From NCBI GenBank assembly GCA_023151115.1, contig JAKLJP010000011.1, positions 148,028 through 212,027 of the forward strand: DNA of 64,000 nt. Reading direction: 5' to 3'. This document shows positions 12,356 through 63,232 of the stretch, in pieces. How positions within the stretch are numbered: position 1 is the stretch's first letter; the number at the start of each line of letters is the position of its first letter. The DNA comes from Anaerolineae bacterium (GTDB lineage Bacteria; Chloroflexota; Anaerolineae; 4572-78; J111). Made by a program: the position numbers and the translations under genes. The notes under the pieces were generated by a model. That model saw only the letters and a program-made list of their open reading frames with translations. It was not told the DNA's origin and searched no databases.

Positions 12356-13801
12356 TTGCCCAACAAAATCCTGTTTGTAACCGGCCGGCTGGCCGAGCCG
12401 GCGCTGCGCCGCACCTTGGCGGCGTTAACGCTGCCCTGCGCTTACGAGATTGTGGTGATGCCGATCTCGATTGCAGCTTTGATGACCACCTCATGGATGG
12501 CCCGCCATTTCACCCTGCCCGCTGCTCACCCCCGCCACCGCCGCATCCCGCCCGACTGCGATTTGGTAATGATCCCCGGCCACTGTCAGGGCGACCTGGC
12601 CGAAATCGAGCTGGCGTGCAGGTTGCCTGTACAAAAAGGGCCGACCGACCTGCAAGAGCTGCCCTACTACTTTGGACAGAAAGGGCGGCCTGAAGGTTAT
12701 GGCCGCTACGACATCCAACTCATCGCCGAAGTTCAGGATGCGCTGCAACTAACCGCAGCCGCCCTGTTAAGCCGGGCCGAATATTACCGGGCCAGCGGCG
12801 CAGAGATCATTGACCTGGGCATTACGCCCGGCAGCGCCCCCGACGCTGTGGCTCGCACCGTGCAACTGCTCAAACAGGGGGGATACCCGGTCAGCCTCGA
12901 CAGCATGGACCCGGCCATTATCCGGGAGGCTGACGCGGCGGGAGCAGATTATATTTTAAGCCTCAACAGCAGCAACCTGGAACTGGGGCGCAGCCTGCGA
13001 GCCATGCCGGTGGTTATCCCCGACGAAGACGGCGACGTGACCTCGCTCTGGCGCAACGCCGAGCAGTTATGGGCCTGGGGGCGAGATTGCATTCTCGACC
13101 CGATCATGCAGCCCATCAGTTTTGGGTTCAGCCGTTCGTTAGCCGACCTTTACCGCACCCGTGAGCGTTATCCCGAAGCCAAATTGATGATGGGCGCCCA
13201 TCACCTCAGCGAATTAACCGACGCCGACAGCACCGGCATCAACGCCCTGCTGATGGGCATCGCCCAGGAGTTGAAACTGTCCTTTGTGTTGACCACCGAA
13301 GTGGCCTCATGGGCCAGAGGCAGTATCCGCGAATTAGACCTGGCCCGCCGTTTGATGTACTATGCCATTAATGCCGGTGTGCCGCCCAAACGATTGGACG
13401 AGGGGCTGCTGACCATCAAGGAGAGCCGCCTGTTGCGCTCGACACCGGCGACGCTGCGCGAAATGCAGGCCGCGCTGACCGACCCCAATTTCCGTATTTT
13501 TATCACCGACCAGGATATCTGCGTTTTCAATGCCGACCGCTTTATTGCCGGAACCGATATTGAAACCATTTTTGAGCAGTTAGGGGTAGACGAAGCCGGA
13601 CATGCCTTTTATCTGGGGCACGAATTGACCAAAGCGCAATTGGCCTTACAGTTGGGTAAAAATTACCAACAGGACCAACCCCTGCGCTGGGGTTATTTAA
13701 CCGTCGCTGAGGCCCGGTCAGCGCAGGAGCGACACGTCCGCCTGACCCAACGCCGCCGGCCAAAACCTGAACCGGACGAAGAGGTTCTCTATGATCATTG
13801 A
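12356..13801 (+). CDS. Dihydropteroate synthase-like protein of the H4MPT pathway
   Basis: A protein of 481 residues with an N-terminal domain (KILFVTGRLAEPALRR, then a C-rich/PGHCQGDL block) and a DHPS-like TIM barrel (GAEIIDLGITPGS, PVSLDSMDPAIIREA, DPIMQPISFGFSRSL). It belongs to the archaeal/methylotroph dihydropteroate synthase-related family rather than folate FolP. It probably joins the pterin to the ribofuranosylaminobenzene half of H4MPT. TTG 12356 is the chosen start: GGAGGA at 12344-12349 is well spaced and conserved sequence begins there. It overlaps the next gene by 11 bases in a three-gene operon ending with beta-RFAP synthase. Confidence 0.88.
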   Translation: MPNKILFVTGRLAEPALRRTLAALTLPCAYEIVVMPISIAALMTTSWMARHFTLPAAHPRHRRIPPDCDLVMIPGHCQGDLAEIELACRLPVQKGPTDLQELPYYFGQKGRPEGYGRYDIQLIAEVQDALQLTAAALLSRAEYYRASGAEIIDLGITPGSAPDAVARTVQLLKQGGYPVSLDSMDPAIIREADAAGADYILSLNSSNLELGRSLRAMPVVIPDEDGDVTSLWRNAEQLWAWGRDCILDPIMQPISFGFSRSLADLYRTRERYPEAKLMMGAHHLSELTDADSTGINALLMGIAQELKLSFVLTTEVASWARGSIRELDLARRLMYYAINAGVPPKRLDEGLLTIKESRLLRSTPATLREMQAALTDPNFRIFITDQDICVFNADRFIAGTDIETIFEQLGVDEAGHAFYLGHELTKAQLALQLGKNYQQDQPLRWGYLTVAEARSAQERHVRLTQRRRPKPEPDEEVLYDH

Positions 13802-53895: not shown

Positions 53896-54597
53896 ATGCA
53901 TTTCTCTCATTCTTCTGAAATTTGGCAGCAGTTCCCCCAGCTTGTGCCCGGCCTGCTGCTGGTCGAAGGGCTTCACCCGGAGGCCGACGTGGAGCCGCTG
54001 CTGCCACCCTGGTATCAGCGCGCCCGCGAGCGGTTGAGCGGGAGGACCGAGTCTGACCTGCCGGAGGTGTCGGCCTGGCGGCGGGCTTATGCCCAGATGG
54101 GCCTCAAACCAACCCAGTATCGCTCCGCCGCCGAAGCGCTGCTGCGTCGTTTTCGCAAAGAAGACGATTTGCCGCGCCTGCACCCGTTGGTGGATTTGTG
54201 CAATGCTGTCTCGCTGGCCTTTGCCCTGCCGGTGGCCGTGTTTGATCTGGCCGGGGTGGAGGGCTACCTGGAGGTGCGCCATGCCCGCGGCGACGAGCAG
54301 TACCTGGCCTTCAGCGGCGAGATCGAAACCCCGGAGCCGGGCGAAGTCATCTTTGCCGATGCGGCCAATCAGGTCCATGCCCGCCGCTGGACCTTTCGCC
54401 AGAGCCGCCGCTCGACCATCAGCCCGGAAACCCGCCGCGCTCTCATCGTCAGCGAGGGCCTACACCCCACCGCCCCCACCGATGTCCCCGCCTTGATCGA
54501 GACCCTGACCCAGGCGATCACGGCCACGTGGTCCGCGCCTCGTGCCCAGGCCATCCTTACGGCGGCTGCGCCGCGCCTGGAGTTTTCGCTGGATTAA
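53896..54597 (+). CDS. B3/B4 tRNA-binding domain protein (PheT-like)
   Basis: 233 residues matching the free-standing B3/B4 domain of phenylalanyl-tRNA synthetase beta: WRRAYAQMGLKPTQYRSAAE, LHPLVDLCNAVSLAFALPVA and EPGEVIFADAANQVHARRWT. These proteins are proposed to edit mischarged tRNA or bind amino acids. ATG 53896 follows the sortase stop by one base, implying co-transcription without an obvious functional link. Confidence 0.87.
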   Translation: MHFSHSSEIWQQFPQLVPGLLLVEGLHPEADVEPLLPPWYQRARERLSGRTESDLPEVSAWRRAYAQMGLKPTQYRSAAEALLRRFRKEDDLPRLHPLVDLCNAVSLAFALPVAVFDLAGVEGYLEVRHARGDEQYLAFSGEIETPEPGEVIFADAANQVHARRWTFRQSRRSTISPETRRALIVSEGLHPTAPTDVPALIETLTQAITATWSAPRAQAILTAAAPRLEFSLD

Positions 54598-55025
54598 CAG
54601 GATTGTTCAATCGGTTCTTTAGCCGCTTTAACCAAAGCAGCCTTGAACTCTTCAGGAGTAATGCCTTTGAGGGGGTTATGATTGACAAACACCTGTTTCC
54701 CTTTGGCTGTAACTATGATGAAGCGGCAGTTGTCAGGATCGTCAAGACGAGGTGGCCGCGCTTTGGAGACAGGTCCTTGCCAGATCAATGCCAATCCCTG
54801 GTCATACTGGGCGTCTTGAATATCTTTAATAATCCCTTTGCCGTTTAATAAGGCATCGTTAACTCGCCTCAAAAGCTTGTGAGCTTCAATCACCCTCATT
54901 GCGCTAATGGCCTGGTCACGCCGCCCCAAAACGCTCAAATCGAGTGAAGCATCTTTTTTATGCTTATTCTCACGCTCTTCATCTTCACGCCGGATCTTGT
55001 AAAGATCATCTAACCAATCCGCCAC
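54594..55025 (-). CDS. Hypothetical protein at the end of the HerA-nuclease unit
   Basis: 143 residues, not recognised. A charged helical first part (WLDDLYKIRREDEERENKHK) is followed by VIEAHKLLRRVNDALLNGKG and a beta-rich C-terminal part (RFIIVTAKGKQVFVNHNPLK). GTG 55025 is preferred to the longer frame because GGGGAG lies 8 bases upstream and the upstream gene ends just before it. It is the last gene of the minus-strand run and converges with the B3/4 gene, the two overlapping by 4 bases. Confidence 0.6.
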   Translation of the reverse strand: MADWLDDLYKIRREDEERENKHKKDASLDLSVLGRRDQAISAMRVIEAHKLLRRVNDALLNGKGIIKDIQDAQYDQGLALIWQGPVSKARPPRLDDPDNCRFIIVTAKGKQVFVNHNPLKGITPEEFKAALVKAAKEPIEQSC

Positions 55026-55044
55026 TGTTACATCTCCCCAGTTT

Positions 55045-55605
55045 TTAGCTTTTAATCGGCAGCCATTGTTTACAAGTTTGAAAATTAGGGCACTTCCAAA
55101 AGGATTGTCCTGCCTCTTTGTGCCCCTCTGGTACTTTCTCTTCAATCATCTCAATATTGCACTTGGGGCACAAGGGGGCATCAAAGGCCATTGAATAAAA
55201 GCCTTTGCCGAGGGCCATTAAGCCAATCTGGTCTTTGGTCAAGGGCTTCTTGACCGCTGGTTTAGGTTCCAGGGCTTGGGCTTTAGCTTTAGCTGAGGGG
55301 GACTGCTCCGGGATAGGTCTGGGGTGTTCGTCCAAAGCTGTTTCTACTGGCATTAATGCGCTGTTTTTGGTTTGGTCTTGCCCTGGGGTTTCTTTTGGCA
55401 GTTGAGCTGATTGAGGGCGATTGTTTGGGATTTCAACGGGCGTGGCGGCCAGGGGTAAAATGCCATGAATAGCTCCGCACTGGCCACAACAGACCACCTG
55501 AAACAAGGCTGTTTGCTCGATCTTGAGCAAATCAAGGCCCTGAGCATTACAAAAGGGACAGCGGGGCGTGGTCATTTGGGTAAGTCCAAAACGAGTTGTG
55601 CTCAA
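55045..55605 (-). CDS. Double zinc-ribbon protein
   Basis: 186 residues. An N-terminal zinc ribbon (CPFCNAQGLDLLKIEQ and a later CCGQCG), a low-complexity Pro/Glu linker of about 70 residues, and a C-terminal CPKCNIEM ... WKCPNFQTCKQW ribbon like the topoisomerase-type C4 finger. It probably binds nucleic acid or bridges proteins. The upper start could be ATG 55575 (MTTPRCPF) instead of 55605. Part of the HerA-nuclease run. Confidence 0.72.
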   Translation of the reverse strand: MSTTRFGLTQMTTPRCPFCNAQGLDLLKIEQTALFQVVCCGQCGAIHGILPLAATPVEIPNNRPQSAQLPKETPGQDQTKNSALMPVETALDEHPRPIPEQSPSAKAKAQALEPKPAVKKPLTKDQIGLMALGKGFYSMAFDAPLCPKCNIEMIEEKVPEGHKEAGQSFWKCPNFQTCKQWLPIKS

Positions 55606-55756
55606 AAAAGCGGTAAGACGTTGCCAAATTATATCACGCCTGAAAATGGGGAGTCAAGGGGCAGACCTCATACTCATAGGGTACGCTGCGCGAAAGCCTA
55701 TAAGGTTATCGCCCGTATCGAAGGGTGATTTTCGGTAAAATATTGAACGCAGGTTA

Positions 55757-56626
55757 TTACCAATTCAAATCCTCAGCCAACTCCAGCAGCGAGCGCGGCC
55801 CGTTCTTTTTCTTGCCGGTCATCGCCTCGGCGCTCTTTTTGGCCACAATGCGCTTGGCAATCATATCGGCCATGACCTTGTCGGGCAGTTGTTTGGGCTG
55901 GCCTTTCTGCCATTCCAAAGCGCGTTTGCCCGGTTCGCAGATGTCGAGATAAGCGCAGTAAGTGTGCGCCCAATGATCCGGCGGCAGGACATCCTCTTCC
56001 GGCAGCCGATCTTCGGCCAGCCCGGCCAGCATTTGCTTGATTCGTTCCAGCCAGCCGGCCATCATCTCTGGGTCGGGATAGACTTCAAGAGCCAGGTGGT
56101 CCAGAGTATCCCGGTTTTCATAGTAGATGATTGCCCCGTTGAGCGGAATCGCCCCGCCATAATATTCGGTCAAGCCCCACAGATAAATCTGGGCCTGGAG
56201 AATGTGCTCCTCTTTGGGCATTTTGGCCGCCTTGAGCTTGTCGAACTCACTGGCCGCGACGGTTTTGAACTCCAGCACCCAGAACCCGGCCACAGACTCC
56301 TCAACCGTTTTATCGGGGGGAATGTATAAGATGCCGTCGCAAAAGCCGTGAATACGATACTCCGGGATTTCAAAAAAGACCTCCTGGGCCAGACAGGCCC
56401 GCGACAGCCCACGCTGCAAACGGCGGTGGCTGTCGGTGCCGACGGAAAGGATGCGCCCCACCCGGGCCTCGAATGGGGGTTTGGGCTGGCCTTGCAGTTC
56501 AAAGGCTACGTACAGCATGCAGCCCTTCGCCAACGATGAAGGCTTGATATAAGGTTCGCCCTGGCCGCGCTGGTCCGTCTGTAGCCACTCGACGGCGTAC
56601 CCGGCAGCGCCTTTTAGCTTTTTCAT
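55757..56626 (-). CDS. PD-(D/E)XK nuclease of the RecB/Cas4-like type
   Basis: 289 residues. Nuclease motifs: GTDSHRRLQRG (His67), FCDGIL (D97), WVLEFKT (E119, K121) and LQAQIYLWG (Q144/Q146). Cysteines at 36 (LAKGCMLY), 224 and 230 (YCAYLDIC) are placed like the Cas4 Fe-S ligands, but a fourth is not obvious. It should cut or resect DNA ends. No cas1, cas2 or CRISPR array is near. It lies 80 bases downstream of the HerA gene in the same direction, implying a joint function. Confidence 0.85.
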   Translation of the reverse strand: MKKLKGAAGYAVEWLQTDQRGQGEPYIKPSSLAKGCMLYVAFELQGQPKPPFEARVGRILSVGTDSHRRLQRGLSRACLAQEVFFEIPEYRIHGFCDGILYIPPDKTVEESVAGFWVLEFKTVAASEFDKLKAAKMPKEEHILQAQIYLWGLTEYYGGAIPLNGAIIYYENRDTLDHLALEVYPDPEMMAGWLERIKQMLAGLAEDRLPEEDVLPPDHWAHTYCAYLDICEPGKRALEWQKGQPKQLPDKVMADMIAKRIVAKKSAEAMTGKKKNGPRSLLELAEDLNW

Positions 56627-56640
56627 AGTTCCTCCAAAAG

Positions 56641-56723
56641 TAGTAATCAGTATTCAGTAGCCAGTAATCGGTATTCAGTGAACAGTTAAACTAATTACTG
56701 ATAACTGATTACTGTTCACTATT
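56641..56723. repeat. CAGTAATCAG palindrome
   Basis: TAGTAATCAGTATTCAGTAG words are mirrored by TACTGATAACTGATTACTG. It fills the gap between the HerA and nuclease genes and enters the last bases of the HerA gene. Confidence 0.75.
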
Positions 56724-57983
56724 CCCACGGCGAAAGAAAAAGCGCGTTTCCCCGGCGGTATTGATTCCGGTCAGCGGATTAACTCTGAAAATCAAAGGAT
56801 ACTGAGCGGTGGCATTACCGATAACCAGGGCGTGGTGCTGGCGCAGCCGGCGGACAAAAGAAGCCATCGTCTCGTAGTCGGTGGCGGCTCCCCGCGATAC
56901 GTGGCGCACATCGTCGTCGAAGGGAATGCGTAATAAAAAGAGATTGTCGGCCTGGCGCAGGATGGTCTCATCCAGCCCGTGAATCATATTGGTTACAAAA
57001 AAACTGGTAATGCCCAGGTGGCGGGCGCGGGTGACGATGTAATCAATGCTGTGGCGCGACACGTACAGGTGGGCTTCCTCGAAGAAAATAAAAGGGAAGC
57101 GGTGGCTGCCGTGCGCAATCTCCCACAAACATAGATCTTTCACCAGCTCGATGATGGCCTGGACAAACCCTTCGCGGGCCAGATTCGACAGGGCCGAGAT
57201 GTCAATCACCAGCGCCCCGCCGTGCCGGATGCGCTGGTACGACTCGCTCAGCGAGGCGGCCTCTTGCGGATTGCGGGCAAAAATTTGGGTATTTTTTATG
57301 GCCTCCAGCCGCGAGCGGATGGCTTGATTAACCACCAGGGCATTCGAGCCGCCGCCGAACTCGTTGTTTTCGGCCATTTGCATGATCTGTTCCAGGCCCA
57401 CATACGGCGCGCGGCCCCGCTCTCGTTCAAGAGTCTCGGCTTCGGCCCACAGCCGGGCAATGCGATTCTCAAAGTACAGCGCCGACACCTCCGGCAGGCC
57501 AAAACGCTGCAAGAGGGTCATCATCGGGGACAGGCCAAACTGCCGCACCCCCAGGCGAAAATTGCCGCCGGCTTCCAGGTGGACAATGCCCCGCCGGGTG
57601 ATCTGGCCCGTTTCCGGGTCAACCTCAACCGAGGGTAGATGGATATATTCTTTGTTAATATCAAAAACCACGCACGGCGCGCCGCTGTTAATCAGTTCTA
57701 ACAAAATTACTTTGGAGAGATGACTTTTGCCGCTGCCCTTCACCCCTGTCACCACATTAACTTTTTCCAGGTCTTGCCCTTCGACATCAAAAGGATGCCC
57801 GCCCAGGGTGTAGCCTAAGCGCAGGGGGTTGCCCAGATTGCGGGTGGCATTGGCAAAAACCTCTTCGTCGCTGGTGCGTTCGATGGTCACATCGCGGGTG
57901 GGAATCCAGCCGTCCCACTGCTCCCAACGATTCAACCCCTCCTCATCTCCAAATCTCAGGCGACGGCCATTGGTTGCTGCCAT
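56709..57983 (-). CDS. HerA-type ATPase (FtsK-HerA superfamily)
   Basis: 424 residues. Walker A GVKGSGKS at 80-87, Walker B FPFIFFEEAH at 296-305, the HerA-typical IDISALSNLAREGFVQAIIE, and a candidate arginine finger in VTRARHLGITSFFVTN. HerA hexamers translocate DNA and usually work with a nuclease. The usual N-terminal HAS-barrel is missing and appears to be encoded by the small upstream gene, which overlaps by 28 bases. The last residues may be altered by a repeat. DNA translocation for the nearby PD-(D/E)XK nuclease is inferred. Confidence 0.87.
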   Translation of the reverse strand: MAATNGRRLRFGDEEGLNRWEQWDGWIPTRDVTIERTSDEEVFANATRNLGNPLRLGYTLGGHPFDVEGQDLEKVNVVTGVKGSGKSHLSKVILLELINSGAPCVVFDINKEYIHLPSVEVDPETGQITRRGIVHLEAGGNFRLGVRQFGLSPMMTLLQRFGLPEVSALYFENRIARLWAEAETLERERGRAPYVGLEQIMQMAENNEFGGGSNALVVNQAIRSRLEAIKNTQIFARNPQEAASLSESYQRIRHGGALVIDISALSNLAREGFVQAIIELVKDLCLWEIAHGSHRFPFIFFEEAHLYVSRHSIDYIVTRARHLGITSFFVTNMIHGLDETILRQADNLFLLRIPFDDDVRHVSRGAATDYETMASFVRRLRQHHALVIGNATAQYPLIFRVNPLTGINTAGETRFFFRRGNSEQ

Positions 57984-58276
57984 TGGACAACCTTTCTGAT
58001 TTTGGCAATCGCCAGTTTGAGATTACTCTTTTCGGATAAGCCCTCCGGTTCGAGCGCCGGGTTTGGGGCCGGTCCGTCCTCGGCCACCAGTTGCAGCATC
58101 TCCTGCACCAGCGAGGGGTAGGAGACAGTTCGAAACTCAATCACCTGCACAATCAGGCCCCGGTCGCTGCCGTTTTCGCGCAGAGTTAAATTTTCGCCCA
58201 CCCGCAGGTCTTCCTCTCTAGGATTAAAAACCAACTCAACAATGTCACCCTTGATCTGCTTGATCTGGATTTTCAT
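57956..58276 (-). CDS. Small HAS-barrel-like protein preceding HerA
   Basis: 106 residues. A beta-rich first half (IKGDIVELVFNPREEDLRVG, ENLTLRE, RGLIVQVIEF) recalls the HAS-barrel of HerA-like ATPases; the second half is a charged helical tail (SEKSNLKLAIAKIRKVVQWQ). It overlaps the HerA gene by 28 bases, so synthesis is coupled. First gene of the minus-strand run from the AT-rich divergent promoter region. The fold assignment is a guess from pattern only. Confidence 0.6.
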   Translation of the reverse strand: MKIQIKQIKGDIVELVFNPREEDLRVGENLTLRENGSDRGLIVQVIEFRTVSYPSLVQEMLQLVAEDGPAPNPALEPEGLSEKSNLKLAIAKIRKVVQWQQPMAVA

Positions 58277-58429
58277 AGATACAGCGCTCCTTTTTTGAAA
58301 ATATTATCCGATTAGAGTTGAAATATTTTCCTAAATGAGTATAATAATTACCGTAAATATACTAGAAAAAAAGTTACTTGTCAACATTATTGGTAAATTA
58401 TTATCCTGAATTGGGAGGGCTATTTATGT
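58277..58429. promoter_or_regulatory. AT-rich divergent control region of the HerA and XRE-ImmA units
   Basis: Markedly AT-rich compared with its surroundings. Two inverted repeats are visible: GAAAATATT (58297-58305) with AATATTTTC (58322-58330), and ATAATAATTACC (58341-58352) with GGTAAATTATTAT (58392-58404). A promoter-like TTGTCA at 58378 and a TATTAT at 58399 precede GGGAGGG (58413-58419) and ATG 58430. The inverted repeats are candidate operators for the XRE protein. Confidence 0.6.
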
Positions 58430-58816
58430 ATGAATCTCTTTGATTATGTCGGGCAGCGGATTCGAGATTTACGCCTGAACTACGGGGACGGGCAAGGGCT
58501 GTCGCAGGAGGCTTTAGCTAAAGCGCTGGGCGTGGCCGCCAATACCATTTCTCGATGGGAAACAGCGACTTACCGGCCCAGCCTGGAAGACCTGGATAGT
58601 CTGGCTCGTTTTTTTGGAGTCTCTATTTTGCAATTCTTCCCGCCAGAAGAAGCCCCGGCCAACGACCAGTTAAACGCCCTGCTGCGTGCCGCCCGGCAGC
58701 TCAAACCGGAAGACCTGGATGAGCTGCGGCGGTATGCCGAGTTTCGGCGGGCGCGCAGCGTTTATGGCGACCAGGAGCGTCCCCGCGCCGGGCGGAAGCG
58801 GAAAGAGGCGGCGTGA
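58430..58816 (+). CDS. XRE-family transcriptional regulator
   Basis: 128 residues. Helix-turn-helix in residues about 10-70 (LSQEALAKALGVAANTISRW, RPSLEDLDSLARFFGV). A basic C-terminal tail follows. It overlaps the ImmA/IrrE-type gene (GTGA junction). The pair resembles ImmR-ImmA, in which a protease relieves repression of a mobile element. It diverges from the HerA-nuclease genes and probably represses them. ATG 58426 is out of frame; GGGAGGG sets ATG 58430. Confidence 0.88.
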   Translation: MNLFDYVGQRIRDLRLNYGDGQGLSQEALAKALGVAANTISRWETATYRPSLEDLDSLARFFGVSILQFFPPEEAPANDQLNALLRAARQLKPEDLDELRRYAEFRRARSVYGDQERPRAGRKRKEAA

Positions 58817-59427
58817 GCCATTTTAATTATTATGACGAAATGAGGGCGCTGGCCCGGCAGGTACGCCAGGAACATGGCCTGGCCGGGCCGCGTGTGCTCA
58901 GATCGGACCTGCGGCGGTTATACCGGGCCTACGGCATCAAAATTGACCTCTGGCCGCATAAGTTTAAATCGCTGCGCGGCGCATATTTTGACGACGACCT
59001 GGGGCCGACGGTTATGCTGGCCCGCCAATTGCCGCCGGAGCCGTTGATTTTCACCATGGCCCACGAATTGAAGCATCACCTGGTGGACCGCGGCCGGGCC
59101 ATGGCCTACTGCGACGTCTCCAATGAGCGAGACCCCATCGAAATTGGGGCTGAAATCTTTGCCGCCGAGCTGATTTTTCCCACGCCCGACTTTTTTGCCT
59201 GCCTCAAGCAAATGGGCATCGGCCCGCGCCAATGCACCGCCGAAGTGGTGGTCCGGCTCAAACACGAAACTCAGACCACCCTCAGTTACACCGGTCTGGC
59301 CAAACGCGCCGAATTTCTTGGGTTTGCACCTGCCGGCTCTCTGGTCCGTATCCCCTGGAAAAAACTGGAAACCCAGCTTTACGGCGAGCCGTTTTACAAG
59401 CAGTTGCAGCGCGCCCAGCAAGCTTAA
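58813..59427 (+). CDS. ImmA/IrrE-family metallopeptidase
   Basis: 204 residues. Zinc motif H84-E-L-K-H88 in FTMAHELKHHLVD, with the third ligand probably the Glu of EIFAAELIFP. The N-terminal half (LRRLYRAYGIKIDLWPHK) is typical. Expected to cleave the partner XRE repressor in response to a signal. GTG 58813 overlaps the XRE stop. It converges with the decayed XRE-AAA-TPR gene. Confidence 0.88.
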   Translation: MSHFNYYDEMRALARQVRQEHGLAGPRVLRSDLRRLYRAYGIKIDLWPHKFKSLRGAYFDDDLGPTVMLARQLPPEPLIFTMAHELKHHLVDRGRAMAYCDVSNERDPIEIGAEIFAAELIFPTPDFFACLKQMGIGPRQCTAEVVVRLKHETQTTLSYTGLAKRAEFLGFAPAGSLVRIPWKKLETQLYGEPFYKQLQRAQQA

Positions 59428-62252
59428 TTTTGGCGAAACTCGTTTTCAATTTCCTGAACGACTAACGAATTAAAAAACGACGCTTTGAGTTCGGTATCCC
59501 CAAGTTGTCCGGCCAGAGTCTCAATCAGACCGAGGGCATGATTGAACGCCGCTTGAGCCTGGCCAGTATCCCCTGTCTGGCGCAGGGCCTGGCCGAGACC
59601 GCGCAAGGCGCGAAGCTGGTCATAGGGGCGGTTCAAAGCTTGCCACTGGCTGGCGGCGGACCGAAACGGTTCGACAGCCTGAGTTGGGTTGTCTTCGGCC
59701 AGGGCAATAATCCCTTGCCCTTCAGCGTAAGCGGCTTCCGTTTCCGGGCTGCCGATTTGCGCGGCTCATTCCAGCCGGCTCAAACAGGCACGGGCAGCCG
59801 CCAGATCTCCAGCAGCAGGGTGGGTGACTAACCACTGGCAGGCGAAGAGCAGGGCCAGGAAGTTGTTCCGGTGAGCATCGGGCGTATGGTCAATCAACGC
59901 TAACAATTCCTCGACGATGGCCGTAGTTTCAGTTTCCAGCCCCAAGCCGGCTAAAGCGCGGGCCAATTGACCCAGGTGAGGCACAGTTGTTTGCGCTTCA
60001 GCCAACCCTCTGACCTGGGGTAATTCTTCTTCCAGGACCTGTCGGGCGGCCTGGGGCTGGCCCAGGTCATTGCGCATCCAGCCCAGCAAGGTGCTGGCCC
60101 AGACCCCTGGCACCATCGAGGTCGTCATACTCTCCCGCCACTCGACAATACGCTCTCGCCGGGTGAGCGCTGCGGCCCACTGGCCGCTCTGCCACTCCAG
60201 TTCGCCCAGGTGGACCAGGGCGTCGCCGATAAACAGGCTGGCCTGAACACGGGTGGCGTAAGCCAACAGCTCTTCATAGGTGGTTCTCGCTTCAGCATAA
60301 TGACCCATCCAAAACAAGCCCTCAGCCATGTTGGTGTAGGCCCGGCAGGCATCGTGTGGTAGCTTGACCCTCAGGGCGCGGCGCAAACTGTCTTGTAACA
60401 TGGCCAACCCCTGTTCCCGGTCTTGCGACTGCATGGAAGCTGAACCGATATTATTTAAGGCGTGGATGATAACATCTTCTGCTGCCAAACGCTCAGCCAG
60501 GGCCAGGGCGCGCCTACCCCAGGCAATCGCCTGGTCATAGGCGGAAGCCAACAGGTGCATCGCTGAAATGGCGCTGATGGTGTGGGCCAACTCAACACTC
60601 TCCGGCCCTTGTTCCAACATCGCCAGGGCTTGATTGTAATGGCGCTGCGCTTGCGCCCGGTCGCCCTGCTCCCAATACAAGCGCCCAATCAGGCGATGCA
60701 TGGCCCCCGCTTGCAGCCGGTCGCCCTGTAGCTCAAACAAAGCTTGACTGGCTTCATAAGTGGTCAATGCGTCGAGCAACTGGCCGGTCATCCATAAACA
60801 CTCGCCCAGTTTGCGCAGGGTTTCCGCTCGCCCGGCCTGTTCCCCCTTGGGCTACTGTTTCAGCGCAGCCCGGTAGAACCGGATGGCCTCATTCAGGGCC
60901 ACCACCCGGCGGGCCTGATCGCCCGCTTGCAGCAGATACAGGACTGCTTTCGCCGAGTTGCCGGCTTCAGTATAGTGATAGGCCAACGAGACGATGATGG
61001 CCTGCAAGGCATCAGCATAAAATGTTTCCAGGCTGCGGGCAATCTCCCCATGCCACAGCCGCCGTTCGCCCTGGCTTAACCGCCGGTAGAGATATTGCTG
61101 AAACAGGGCATGCCCAAACTGAAAGCGGGTCAAATAGTGAGATTCTACTTTAACCTCCTCATACTCGCGCACCAGGCGCTGACGCTGGCCCAATTCCTGA
61201 GTCAGTTGGCGCAGCACATGCCGCTCATCTTGCTGTTGGGCCTGGGCCACAACCTGGGCGGTAAAGAGTTCACCTTCCACACTGGCGATGGCCGGCAGCT
61301 CTTGACGGCTCGGCTCCAGGCGCTCTATCCGCTGTTTTATTACCGCTTCCACCCGCACCGGCAGGGTCTGCCAATCTAACGTCGCGCCCTCCACCCAGCG
61401 CCCTGCCTCGTCCCGCACCAGATTGCCCCGCTCCTGCATGTCCCGCAGCAATTCGATGGTAAACAGGGGATGGCCCTTGGTGTGCCCGAACAAGGTTTTG
61501 CGGAAAGCCGGCCCCAGGCGGTTGGGTTCGCTATCCAGGAGGGCCTCGACAAAGGCTTGCTCTTCGGCCGGAACAAACTGTTCCAGGTCAAGCTGGATGT
61601 CGCCCAGGCGTCGCTTAAACTCGTTGACAATCCCCTCCAAGAGATGGTGGGACCGATCCTCGGAATTCCCCGGGGCCACCTCACTGGCCCGGTAAGCCCC
61701 CACCATCAAAATCCGGCTGCCGGGCAAGCGCCGGCCCAGATGAAAGAGCAAATTGAGTGAGGCGCTGTCGGCCCACTGCAAATCATCCAACAGCAACAAC
61801 AAGGGCTGCGCCGCGGCCAAGGCCCGCAATACCAGGGTGATCTGCTCAAAAAGCTGGCGCTGCTCCAACTGAGCCGGTCGGGGCGCTTCGACCAGGCGCT
61901 GCCATGCCTTCAACCAGCCGGCCCCGGCCGGCGCATACATCGTTATCCGTTCAGTTAAAACAGTCGTAGGGACCAACACGTCCAGCAGGTCGGGGCCATG
62001 CTCGGCTAACGCCTGGATGGTCTGGGGCAGAAAGCGCCACAGCCGGTTGGCTTGTTCGGCGGAAAGCGCGCCGGCCGCCCAGTGGGCTTCCAGATCGTCG
62101 GCCATCTCGCGGGAAGGCCGCCGCTCATCCTGCTCGATCTTCTTGATGGTAATCACCGCGCAGCCAATCAGTTTGGCCAGGTCCGCCTGGGTCAGGTCCA
62201 GCGCCTTGCGCCGCTGCTGCACCCAGGCCCCAAAAGAAACAATCTCATCCAT
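59424..62252 (-). pseudogene. XRE-AAA-TPR regulator with two in-frame stops and no Walker A
   Basis: One frame stays open by homology over 2.8 kb. An XRE helix-turn-helix (VQQRRKALDLTQADLAKLIG) leads into an AAA-type ATPase (Walker B LLLLLDDLQWADSASL) and a long TPR region (AMHRLIGRLYWEQGDRAQAQ and more). A TAG at 60852-60854 and a TGA at 59766-59768 interrupt it without frame change. The Walker A loop expected between the helix-turn-helix and RLWRFLPQTIQALAEHGPDL is missing, as if deleted in frame. The family (about 1000 residues) is common in Chloroflexota. A decayed gene is the simplest reading. Confidence 0.8.
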
Positions 62253-62263
62253 AAATTTGCCCC

Positions 62264-63232
62264 TTGTATCCCCGCTACACCGCAATGGATTTCCTGGTGG
62301 CCCGCTTCCTGCCCAACGGTGGTATTGACAGCAGCTTTGGCACAGGGGGCGTGACCACGATAGATTTTGCCGTCCGGGCCGATAAAGCCACCGCTCTGGC
62401 TCTGGCCCCCGACGGCAAGATTGTCGTCGCCGGTCCAGTCGAGGGGACTCGTTTCATCTGGGGCGTAGCCCGCTTGACCGCCAGCGGCCAACTGGACAAC
62501 AGCTTCAATCAGGGTGGCAAGGCCTATGTGGATTTCAACGTCGCCAACGGGGTCAGTGCGGTCCTGGCCCAGCCGGATAAAAAGATCATTCTGGGCGGTT
62601 ATTTCAATGGTGATTTCGCGCTGCACCGGCTGTTGGAGAGTGGTCAGCCCGACCCCGGTTTTGGCAGCAACGGCAATGGCTATAGCTTGACCAACCTGGG
62701 CGGCGCCGAGGCCATCAATGCCCTGGCTCTGGCCCCCAACGGCTGGATTTATGCCGCCGGGTATCGCACGACCGGAAGCGGCACCAGCCGCAACAGCGAT
62801 ATGGCTCTGGCCCAGTATAGCCCCCAGGGCATCTTGACCGCGTGTGATGACCCCAACAATTGTCACATCTGGCCCAGCGGAACCTTCTTTTTCGATCAGG
62901 CTCGCAACGATTATGCCTATGCCTTGGACCTGCGGGCCGACGGCCAGCTGGTGGCGGCTGGCTGTAGTAATCAGCACTTTGCCGCCGTTCAAGTGCGCAC
63001 CGATGGCGAGCCGACCCCGCGACCCTTCAACACCGATTTTGTGGGCCTGCCCGACTGCGCCTCCGCGGTCAAGTTCAGCGGGGCTAACAAAATCCTGCTG
63101 GCCGGCGCCCACTACCTGGACGGCAGCGATAACAACATCGCCCTGGCCCGCTTTGAAACGACGGTGAATACGCCGGGACCCAATCCCACCCCTGGCCTGG
63201 GCCGGGTCTACCTGCCGATCATCATGCGCTAA
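62264..63232 (+). pseudogene. Delta-60-repeat secreted protein, 5' truncated
   Basis: About 322 residues of delta-60 repeats (DFLVARFLPNGGIDSSFGTG, GKIVVAGPVEGTRF) folding as a beta-propeller. The C-terminus, GRVYLPIIMR, is a motif I associate with secreted Chloroflexota proteins. No signal peptide: an in-frame TAA at 62252-62254 closes the frame only 9 bases before the first start, directly at the start codon of the divergent regulator. The N-terminal part is therefore missing. A cytoplasmic short form is possible but unlikely. Confidence 0.7.

Follow-up and report, generated by a model that had tools for sequence, protein, structure and literature searches.

A HerA-type motor and a Cas4-fold nuclease in a rare gene cassette beside DNA-damage-type regulators in Anaerolineae

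The window analysed here is a 64,000-nt stretch of DNA from an Anaerolineae bacterium (contig JAKLJP010000011.1, positions 148,028-212,027), in which genes for a HAS barrel, a HerA-type ATPase and a nuclease lie next to a divergent repressor-protease pair. Judged from sequence, the core of this locus is a three-gene unit that comprises the HAS barrel, HerA and a Cas4-fold exonuclease. It is probably a self-contained cassette, spread by horizontal transfer, that supplies a DNA-end-degrading motor-nuclease on demand, upon DNA damage.

Results

A conserved HAS-HerA-nuclease core

The HerA and nuclease genes are adjacent in all eight loci whose HerA is at least 78% identical to that of the window, namely the window itself and genomes G001, G002, G214, G003, G024, G665 and G966. 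Relatives number at least 827 for HerA (E<=1e-3) and at least 451 for the nuclease. Between the lists used, the best 120 of 827 and the best 120 of 451, respectively, 27 of the 119 distinct contig sizes recur, versus a jittered mean of 1.15.

The motor half matches Pfam DUF87/HerA at 1.4e-11, and 125/125 HerA sequences have the Walker A residues K86/S87 and, as Walker B stretch, FFEEAH. The first minus-strand gene (57956-58276) had been taken, in a sequence-only reading of this DNA, for a HAS-barrel-like partner of HerA. The barrel stands, but not as a separate partner: because relatives carry both parts fused, the two genes would encode the halves of one protein, the first being the predicted HAS barrel of a split HerA. 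HAS and motor are fused in 39 of the 131 rows of the HerA tree, and the fused proteins of relatives (496-566 aa) hold both halves. The fused form is present in all three WYL loci described below and the split form in the XRE-M78 and LexA loci. The predicted model of the fused HerA is of low confidence (mean predicted local distance difference test score 62.9); therefore only its N-terminal barrel and its overall match to HerA were used. The HAS-barrel HerA translocase that characterizes HerA-NurA is found here, with the barrel on a gene of its own in the window.

The nuclease matches Pfam PDDEXK_1 at 1.2e-4 and PADLOC Cas4 at 4.3e-8, and has no match to NurA (PF09376) at E<=0.1. The earlier assignment of a HerA with a PD-(D/E)XK nuclease other than NurA is thus borne out, as is its choice of catalytic residues, since D97/E119/K121 are invariant in 129/129 nuclease sequences. 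C96, beside D97, is likewise invariant in the alignment, as is a C…H-x2-C-x5-C set (129/129). Relative to the C-x2-C-x5-C ligand group of Cas4, the first C is replaced by H in all 129 nucleases. Sequence motifs and fold comparison indicate a RecB-type core with intact motifs and the Cas4 fold. In place of the four Fe-S cysteines of Cas4, three Cys and an invariant His occupy the ligand positions, and for that reason the nuclease is not filed as Cas4 proper despite its fold. Its score against TIGR00372 (Cas4) is 31.3 bits, below the 65-bit cut-off, and the nuclease profile found no PDB sequence at E<=1.

A rare, probably horizontally spread cassette

Close HerA matches were found in 4 of 298 genomes of the class (23 down to E 1e-3, the remaining 19 being weak), in 6/396 class genomes of another draw and in 2/400 genomes of the phylum, one of which is G539. 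The genome at the centre of each search is counted in these figures, and the class, order and phylum draws overlap. Orders centred on carriers gave 3/25, 1/46, 1/5 and 1/301, and the orders of G003, G024 and G665 held no carrier besides the centre genomes.

The conservation of HerA was compared with that of RecA for 10 of the 12 loci fetched, with G666b and G539 dropped by a filter and G966 outside the search. Within the order of G001, HerA is 82-90% alike and RecA, for matching paralogues, 88-97%. Across orders, HerA is 76-83% alike and RecA 67-79%; in each pair HerA equals or exceeds the best RecA pair, by a margin that goes down to 1 point with the RecA of G003, which is a 223-aa part. HerA is thus less conserved than RecA nearby and more conserved far away, which points to horizontal transfer. 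Several of the genomes G001, G002, G024, G214 and G666 (up to 9.4 Mb) have two or more strong RecA matches.

Three regulator types at one position

The plus-strand pair of the window consists of an XRE protein, which matches HTH_3 at 6.2e-15 (Pfam) and PADLOC capH at 1.1e-8, and a protease that matches M78/IrrE (PF06114) at 2e-10 and PADLOC capP at 6e-11 and carries HELKH at residue 84. A unit of the CapH+CapP type, XRE plus an M78 protein with HEXXH, therefore lies beside the operon. The pair is divergent on the 5' side of the core in the window, G001 and G002, and runs in the same direction in G214. The 5' side is occupied by a WYL gene in G024 and G665 (WYL+WCX+HTH_11, Pfam) and in G966 (PADLOC only), and in G003 by a complete, divergent LexA (S24 5e-33, LexA_DNA_bind 8.7e-21). 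The XRE-ImmA control proposed earlier is therefore confirmed in the window as an XRE and M78 pair, but is one of three regulator types.

PprI/CapP respond to single-stranded DNA (ssDNA) or DNA damage (PMC10904395), and the same is described for the WYL proteins PafBC, SiwR and DriD and, via RecA, for LexA (PMC12288472). By their sequences, three regulator types with unrelated sensing parts, all from DNA-damage or ssDNA classes, thus appear at one place. This swap of three switches is good comparative evidence and suggests damage or ssDNA as the signal. Among putative immune operons, 219 of 544 Bub operons are associated with CapW or CapH+CapP (PMC13373217).

Two divergent promoter-like sites (11/12 each) lie back to back with the near-palindrome TTACCGTAA at 58348-58356. 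They are consensus matches, five such sites being found in the region versus 3.1 expected. TTACCGTAA and the site for HAS-HerA-nuclease fall within a block that L001 and L002 share, and the near-palindrome is a candidate shared operator. The inverted-repeat search of four upstream regions returned no shared operator; a perfect 8-nt inverted repeat is present upstream in L033 alone.

Plain WYL regulators (L004 5067-6065, L035 2700-3800 and L057 3788-4861) match the first ~318 of the 1009 positions of the PADLOC model PDLC01766 'Cas3c' at 6.6e-80 to 2.7e-92. Apparently this model contains a WYL regulator portion, and genes of this kind would be misnamed by it. We set the 'Cas3c' label aside and took it as a match to the WYL part of the model.

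Distant loci and genomic surroundings

Several observations weigh against the on-demand motor-nuclease proposed here. Conservation rests on eight loci, of which the window and G001 are close kin (91-95% DNA identity in blocks). In the distant loci of G539, G666 and G667, HerA and the nuclease are adjacent in none of three, and no regulator of the XRE-M78, WYL or LexA type was found there. The tally of regulators over the eight loci is a raw count. In G666, whose phylum is represented by four genomes, HerA (65-66%) has no adjoining nuclease and the nuclease (49%) is on a separate contig; in G667, the 18 kb read hold no Cas4-like nuclease beside HerA. In G539, which belongs to the phylum of G001, the neighbour of HerA (50-52% identical) is NurA (E 4.2e-6). 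NurA itself scored above cut-off in 11/11 genomes searched, including all seven with the adjacent pair. Finally, PADLOC at 1e-15 matched 4/49 neighbouring proteins, all as mad3, which gives no defence-island context. These matches are probably the four ABC transporters, the same number having matched ABC_tran. The 49 neighbours were chosen from the window, L002, L004, L005, L033 and L057, with L001 left out.

Since NurA is present in all 11 genomes, the HerA-nuclease pair is an addition and no genome-level replacement; that the pair replaces NurA in the genome was rejected, the difference being at operon level only. With NurA beside HerA in G539 and the Cas4-like nuclease there in the eight close loci, the latter takes the seat of NurA in the operon, not in the genome. 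The G539 locus (L034 462-4461), with its HerA of the same subfamily (50%) and NurA gene, lies between genes that, judged from ORF (open reading frame) starts only, are argG-like and argH-like.

The 49 neighbours are mostly transporters, genes of sugar and energy metabolism, sortase and B3/4 (among 25 of 56 Pfam families). Judged from these, the cassette lies amid unrelated genes, with no sign of a defence island or of a mobile element.

Discussion

Proposed mechanism

A damage-induced HerA ring that feeds a Cas4-like exonuclease is the simplest reading of the locus, because HerA is a ring translocase and Cas4 an ssDNA exonuclease with a suggested helicase helper. By analogy with PprI-DdrO and CapP-CapH, ssDNA from damage or from invading DNA would activate the M78 protease, which would cleave the XRE repressor. 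With the divergent promoter freed, all three core proteins would be made. HAS barrel and motor, fused in relatives, may reassemble from their split halves into a HerA subunit. A hexameric HerA ring could pump duplex DNA into the Cas4-fold exonuclease, the stand-in for NurA in the operon, in a putative complex of the two. The exonuclease, whose fold and active site are recognized in silico, would degrade or resect the ends.

Comparison with known systems

The locus resembles HerA-NurA, a complex known from archaea, Deinococcus and other bacteria, in that a HAS-barrel HerA motor (fold matches 4d2i, 9x1m and 7f6d) is encoded beside a nuclease, and the 50%-identical HerA of G539 is encoded beside NurA itself. 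It differs in that the nuclease has a Cas4 fold, HAS is split off in one form, a damage-type regulator is attached and NurA sits elsewhere in the same genomes. SIR2-HerA (Nezha) and DUF4297-HerA likewise join a HerA motor (fold matches 8xav, 8j4u and 8ziq) to another enzyme, whereas the partner here is a Cas4-like exonuclease; the motor half stays far below the antiphage-HerA NCBIfam cut-offs (25.8 bits versus 850 and 22.2 versus 800). The nuclease shares the RecB-type active site, ligand spacing and fold of Cas4 and solo-Cas4, but has H for the first C of C-x2-C-x5-C and sits beside HerA. As with CapH+CapP, CapW/BrxR and PprI-DdrO, an XRE and M78 pair is found beside the operon, or WYL upstream of it; here, however, the operon is a HerA-nuclease pair, and LexA can take the same position. 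The protease has weak sequence similarity to the solved CapP 7t5t (E 0.18).

Thermococcus HerA-NurA breaks down the two strands of dsDNA alike; the authors of that 2026 study argue against direct resection and for a possible antiviral use (PMC12977600). For Cas4, a 5'-3' ssDNA exonuclease, Cas3 or a helicase such as HerA has been suggested as a helper (PMC3466216). Solo-Cas4 has been reported in 'many Chloroflexi', and the main text of that article makes no mention of HerA (PMC5704561). Makarova 2009 records, in general terms, that FtsK-like ATPases occur with nucleases, and that nucleases related to Cas4 occur with Argonautes (PMC2743648). Among open-licence PMC papers, judged by title, abstract start or passage, we found no description of a HerA and Cas4-like nuclease pair. 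A HerA/RecB-type nuclease pair may already figure in the HerA-FtsK comparative genomics of Iyer et al. 2004.

Defence, repair or mobile element

If the steps above hold, an inducible anti-invader or end-clearing system has a slightly better than even chance and is likelier than a dedicated double-strand-break repair pathway, which falls slightly below even. Patchiness, transfer and switches of the immune type give this tilt to anti-invader use, whereas repair stays in contention through the LexA neighbour, the high degree of conservation and surroundings that are not those of a defence island. In its most specific form, which we put forward tentatively, the proposal is a stand-alone Chloroflexota anti-invader system in which a Cys3-His Cas4-type exonuclease is powered by an inducible HerA ring and three ssDNA/DNA-damage switches (XRE-M78, WYL and LexA) are plugged into the same place. 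A serious contender, though with less than an even chance, is an accessory role in double-strand-break repair, in which the cassette, as a member of a LexA/DdrO-type regulon, would prepare chromosome ends for RecA by resection, in the way proposed for HerA-NurA, and give some hosts damage tolerance. LexA beside one locus fits this, as does PprI-DdrO being a repair switch (PMC10904395); the high sequence conservation and the largely metabolic surroundings would suit a repair gene, and the G666 nuclease lies amid apparent core genes (judged from ORF starts only). A repair gene would, however, have to be reconciled with a very patchy distribution (6/396 class genomes, including the centre), with hosts that already carry NurA, with the cross-order transfer pattern and with regulators of a kind also found on immune operons (PMC13373217). 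A HerA with a Cas4-like partner beside damage sensors adds a testable second case to the debate on whether HerA-type motors work in repair or in defence. The cassette also offers a candidate helicase for feeding ssDNA exonucleases of the Cas4-like kind. If true, the anti-invader system would realize in nature the partnership of Cas4 with HerA that had been put forward in 2012 as one of two guesses.

The sequence-only reading had allowed for defence, repair or a mobile element; DNA-end processing or defence stays plausible, while the last finds little support. That the locus is part of an integrative/conjugative element or prophage, with XRE-ImmA as its induction switch, is highly unlikely, although TnSmu1 is an element switched by an ImmR-like regulator (PMC10233336) and the spread is patchy. 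At 1e-6, the 49 neighbours matched 22 PHROGs families, 11 of them without description; the described ones included one transposase and no integrase, in a search not aimed at conjugation genes. Pattern-based scans of IMG/VR, which need an exact peptide pattern, gave no close relative, and distant nuclease kin occur in 18 phage and 4 plasmid records, all below 31% identity. Prophage or element origin is disfavoured by these three results; besides, one flank is common to G001 and G002, and WYL or LexA takes the regulator's place at other loci. Least likely of all is a five-gene system with the zinc-ribbon and 143-aa proteins as working partners, as first proposed. All seven frames are present, the five minus-strand genes are in tandem on one strand, and L001 has an expanded zinc-ribbon gene at the same place, but only HAS, HerA and the nuclease are conserved together. 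The zinc ribbon matched L001 only among L001-L006 (tblastn, E<=1e-3) and had no match among the ORFs of L033, L035 and L057 (blastp, 1e-4); L003/L035 and L057 are short contigs, unlike L002, L004, L005 and L033. The zinc-ribbon gene has its own promoter-like site just upstream (55657-55628). The 143-aa gene has seven relatives by protein search (five at 141-143 aa), against the hundreds counted above for HerA and the nuclease, and window ~54599-55447 lacks any long stretch of DNA that matches L001. The five-gene unit was rejected because the zinc ribbon is not conserved with the core and has its own promoter-like site; the two genes (54594-55605) look like a separate, unconserved cassette in a variable slot outside the system.

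Layout of the locus and minor observations

The ORF listing of the window gives minus-strand frames at 54594-55145, 55045-55605, 55757-56626, 56709-57983 and 57956-58276, and divergent plus-strand frames at 58430-58816 and 58813-59427; features are collected in Table 1. The 143-aa gene probably starts at 55025 (GTG). No Rfam families or tRNAs were found in the window. Its nearest relative is contig JABTUK010000003.1 of an Anaerolineales metagenome-assembled genome (G001), which is similar, not identical.

Table 1. Features of the HAS-HerA-nuclease locus, in window coordinates
Feature	Position	Strand	Remarks
HAS-barrel half of split HerA (predicted), 106 aa	57956..58276	-	28-nt overlap with the HerA start, different frame
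HerA/FtsK-type DNA translocase ATPase, motor half, 424 aa	56709..57983	-	DUF87, Walker motifs
Cas4-fold PD-(D/E)XK exonuclease (predicted), 289 aa	55757..56626	-	H67/D97/E119-x-K121/Q144/Y148; possible metal ligands C36/H221/C224/C230
XRE-family repressor, 128 aa	58430..58816	+	HTH_3, PADLOC capH
M78/IrrE (ImmA-like) metalloprotease	58813..59427	+	PF06114, PADLOC capP; HEXXH is HELKH at residue 84
Promoter-like site for HAS-HerA-nuclease, TTGACA-17-TATATT, 11/12	58356..58384	-	consensus match only
Promoter-like site for XRE-M78, TTGAAA-16-TATAAT, 11/12	58318..58345	+	consensus match only
Candidate shared operator TTACCGTAA between divergent promoters	58348..58356	.	near-palindrome, from sequence
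Double zinc-ribbon protein, ATG near 55575	55045..55605	-	CxxC pairs at residues 16, 40 and 146; adjoins core, judged outside it
143-aa orphan	54594..55025	-	GTG start at 55025; adjoins core, judged outside it

In L001, the zinc-ribbon gene of the nearest relative (12520-13314) encodes 264 aa with an additional zinc-ribbon-like segment, and the gene after it has no full match to the 143-aa gene. A 1085-aa XRE/AAA/TPR regulator is a single frame in L001 (5114-8371) and three ORFs in the window (59424-62285, minus strand), where ~130 residues are missing through decay or assembly error. Between the HerA and nuclease genes, window 56641-56721 holds an AT-rich imperfect inverted repeat with 28-nt arms that are 79% complementary. 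It is accompanied by 21-nt direct repeats and resembles a miniature inverted-repeat transposable element (MITE) or a repetitive extragenic palindrome (REP).

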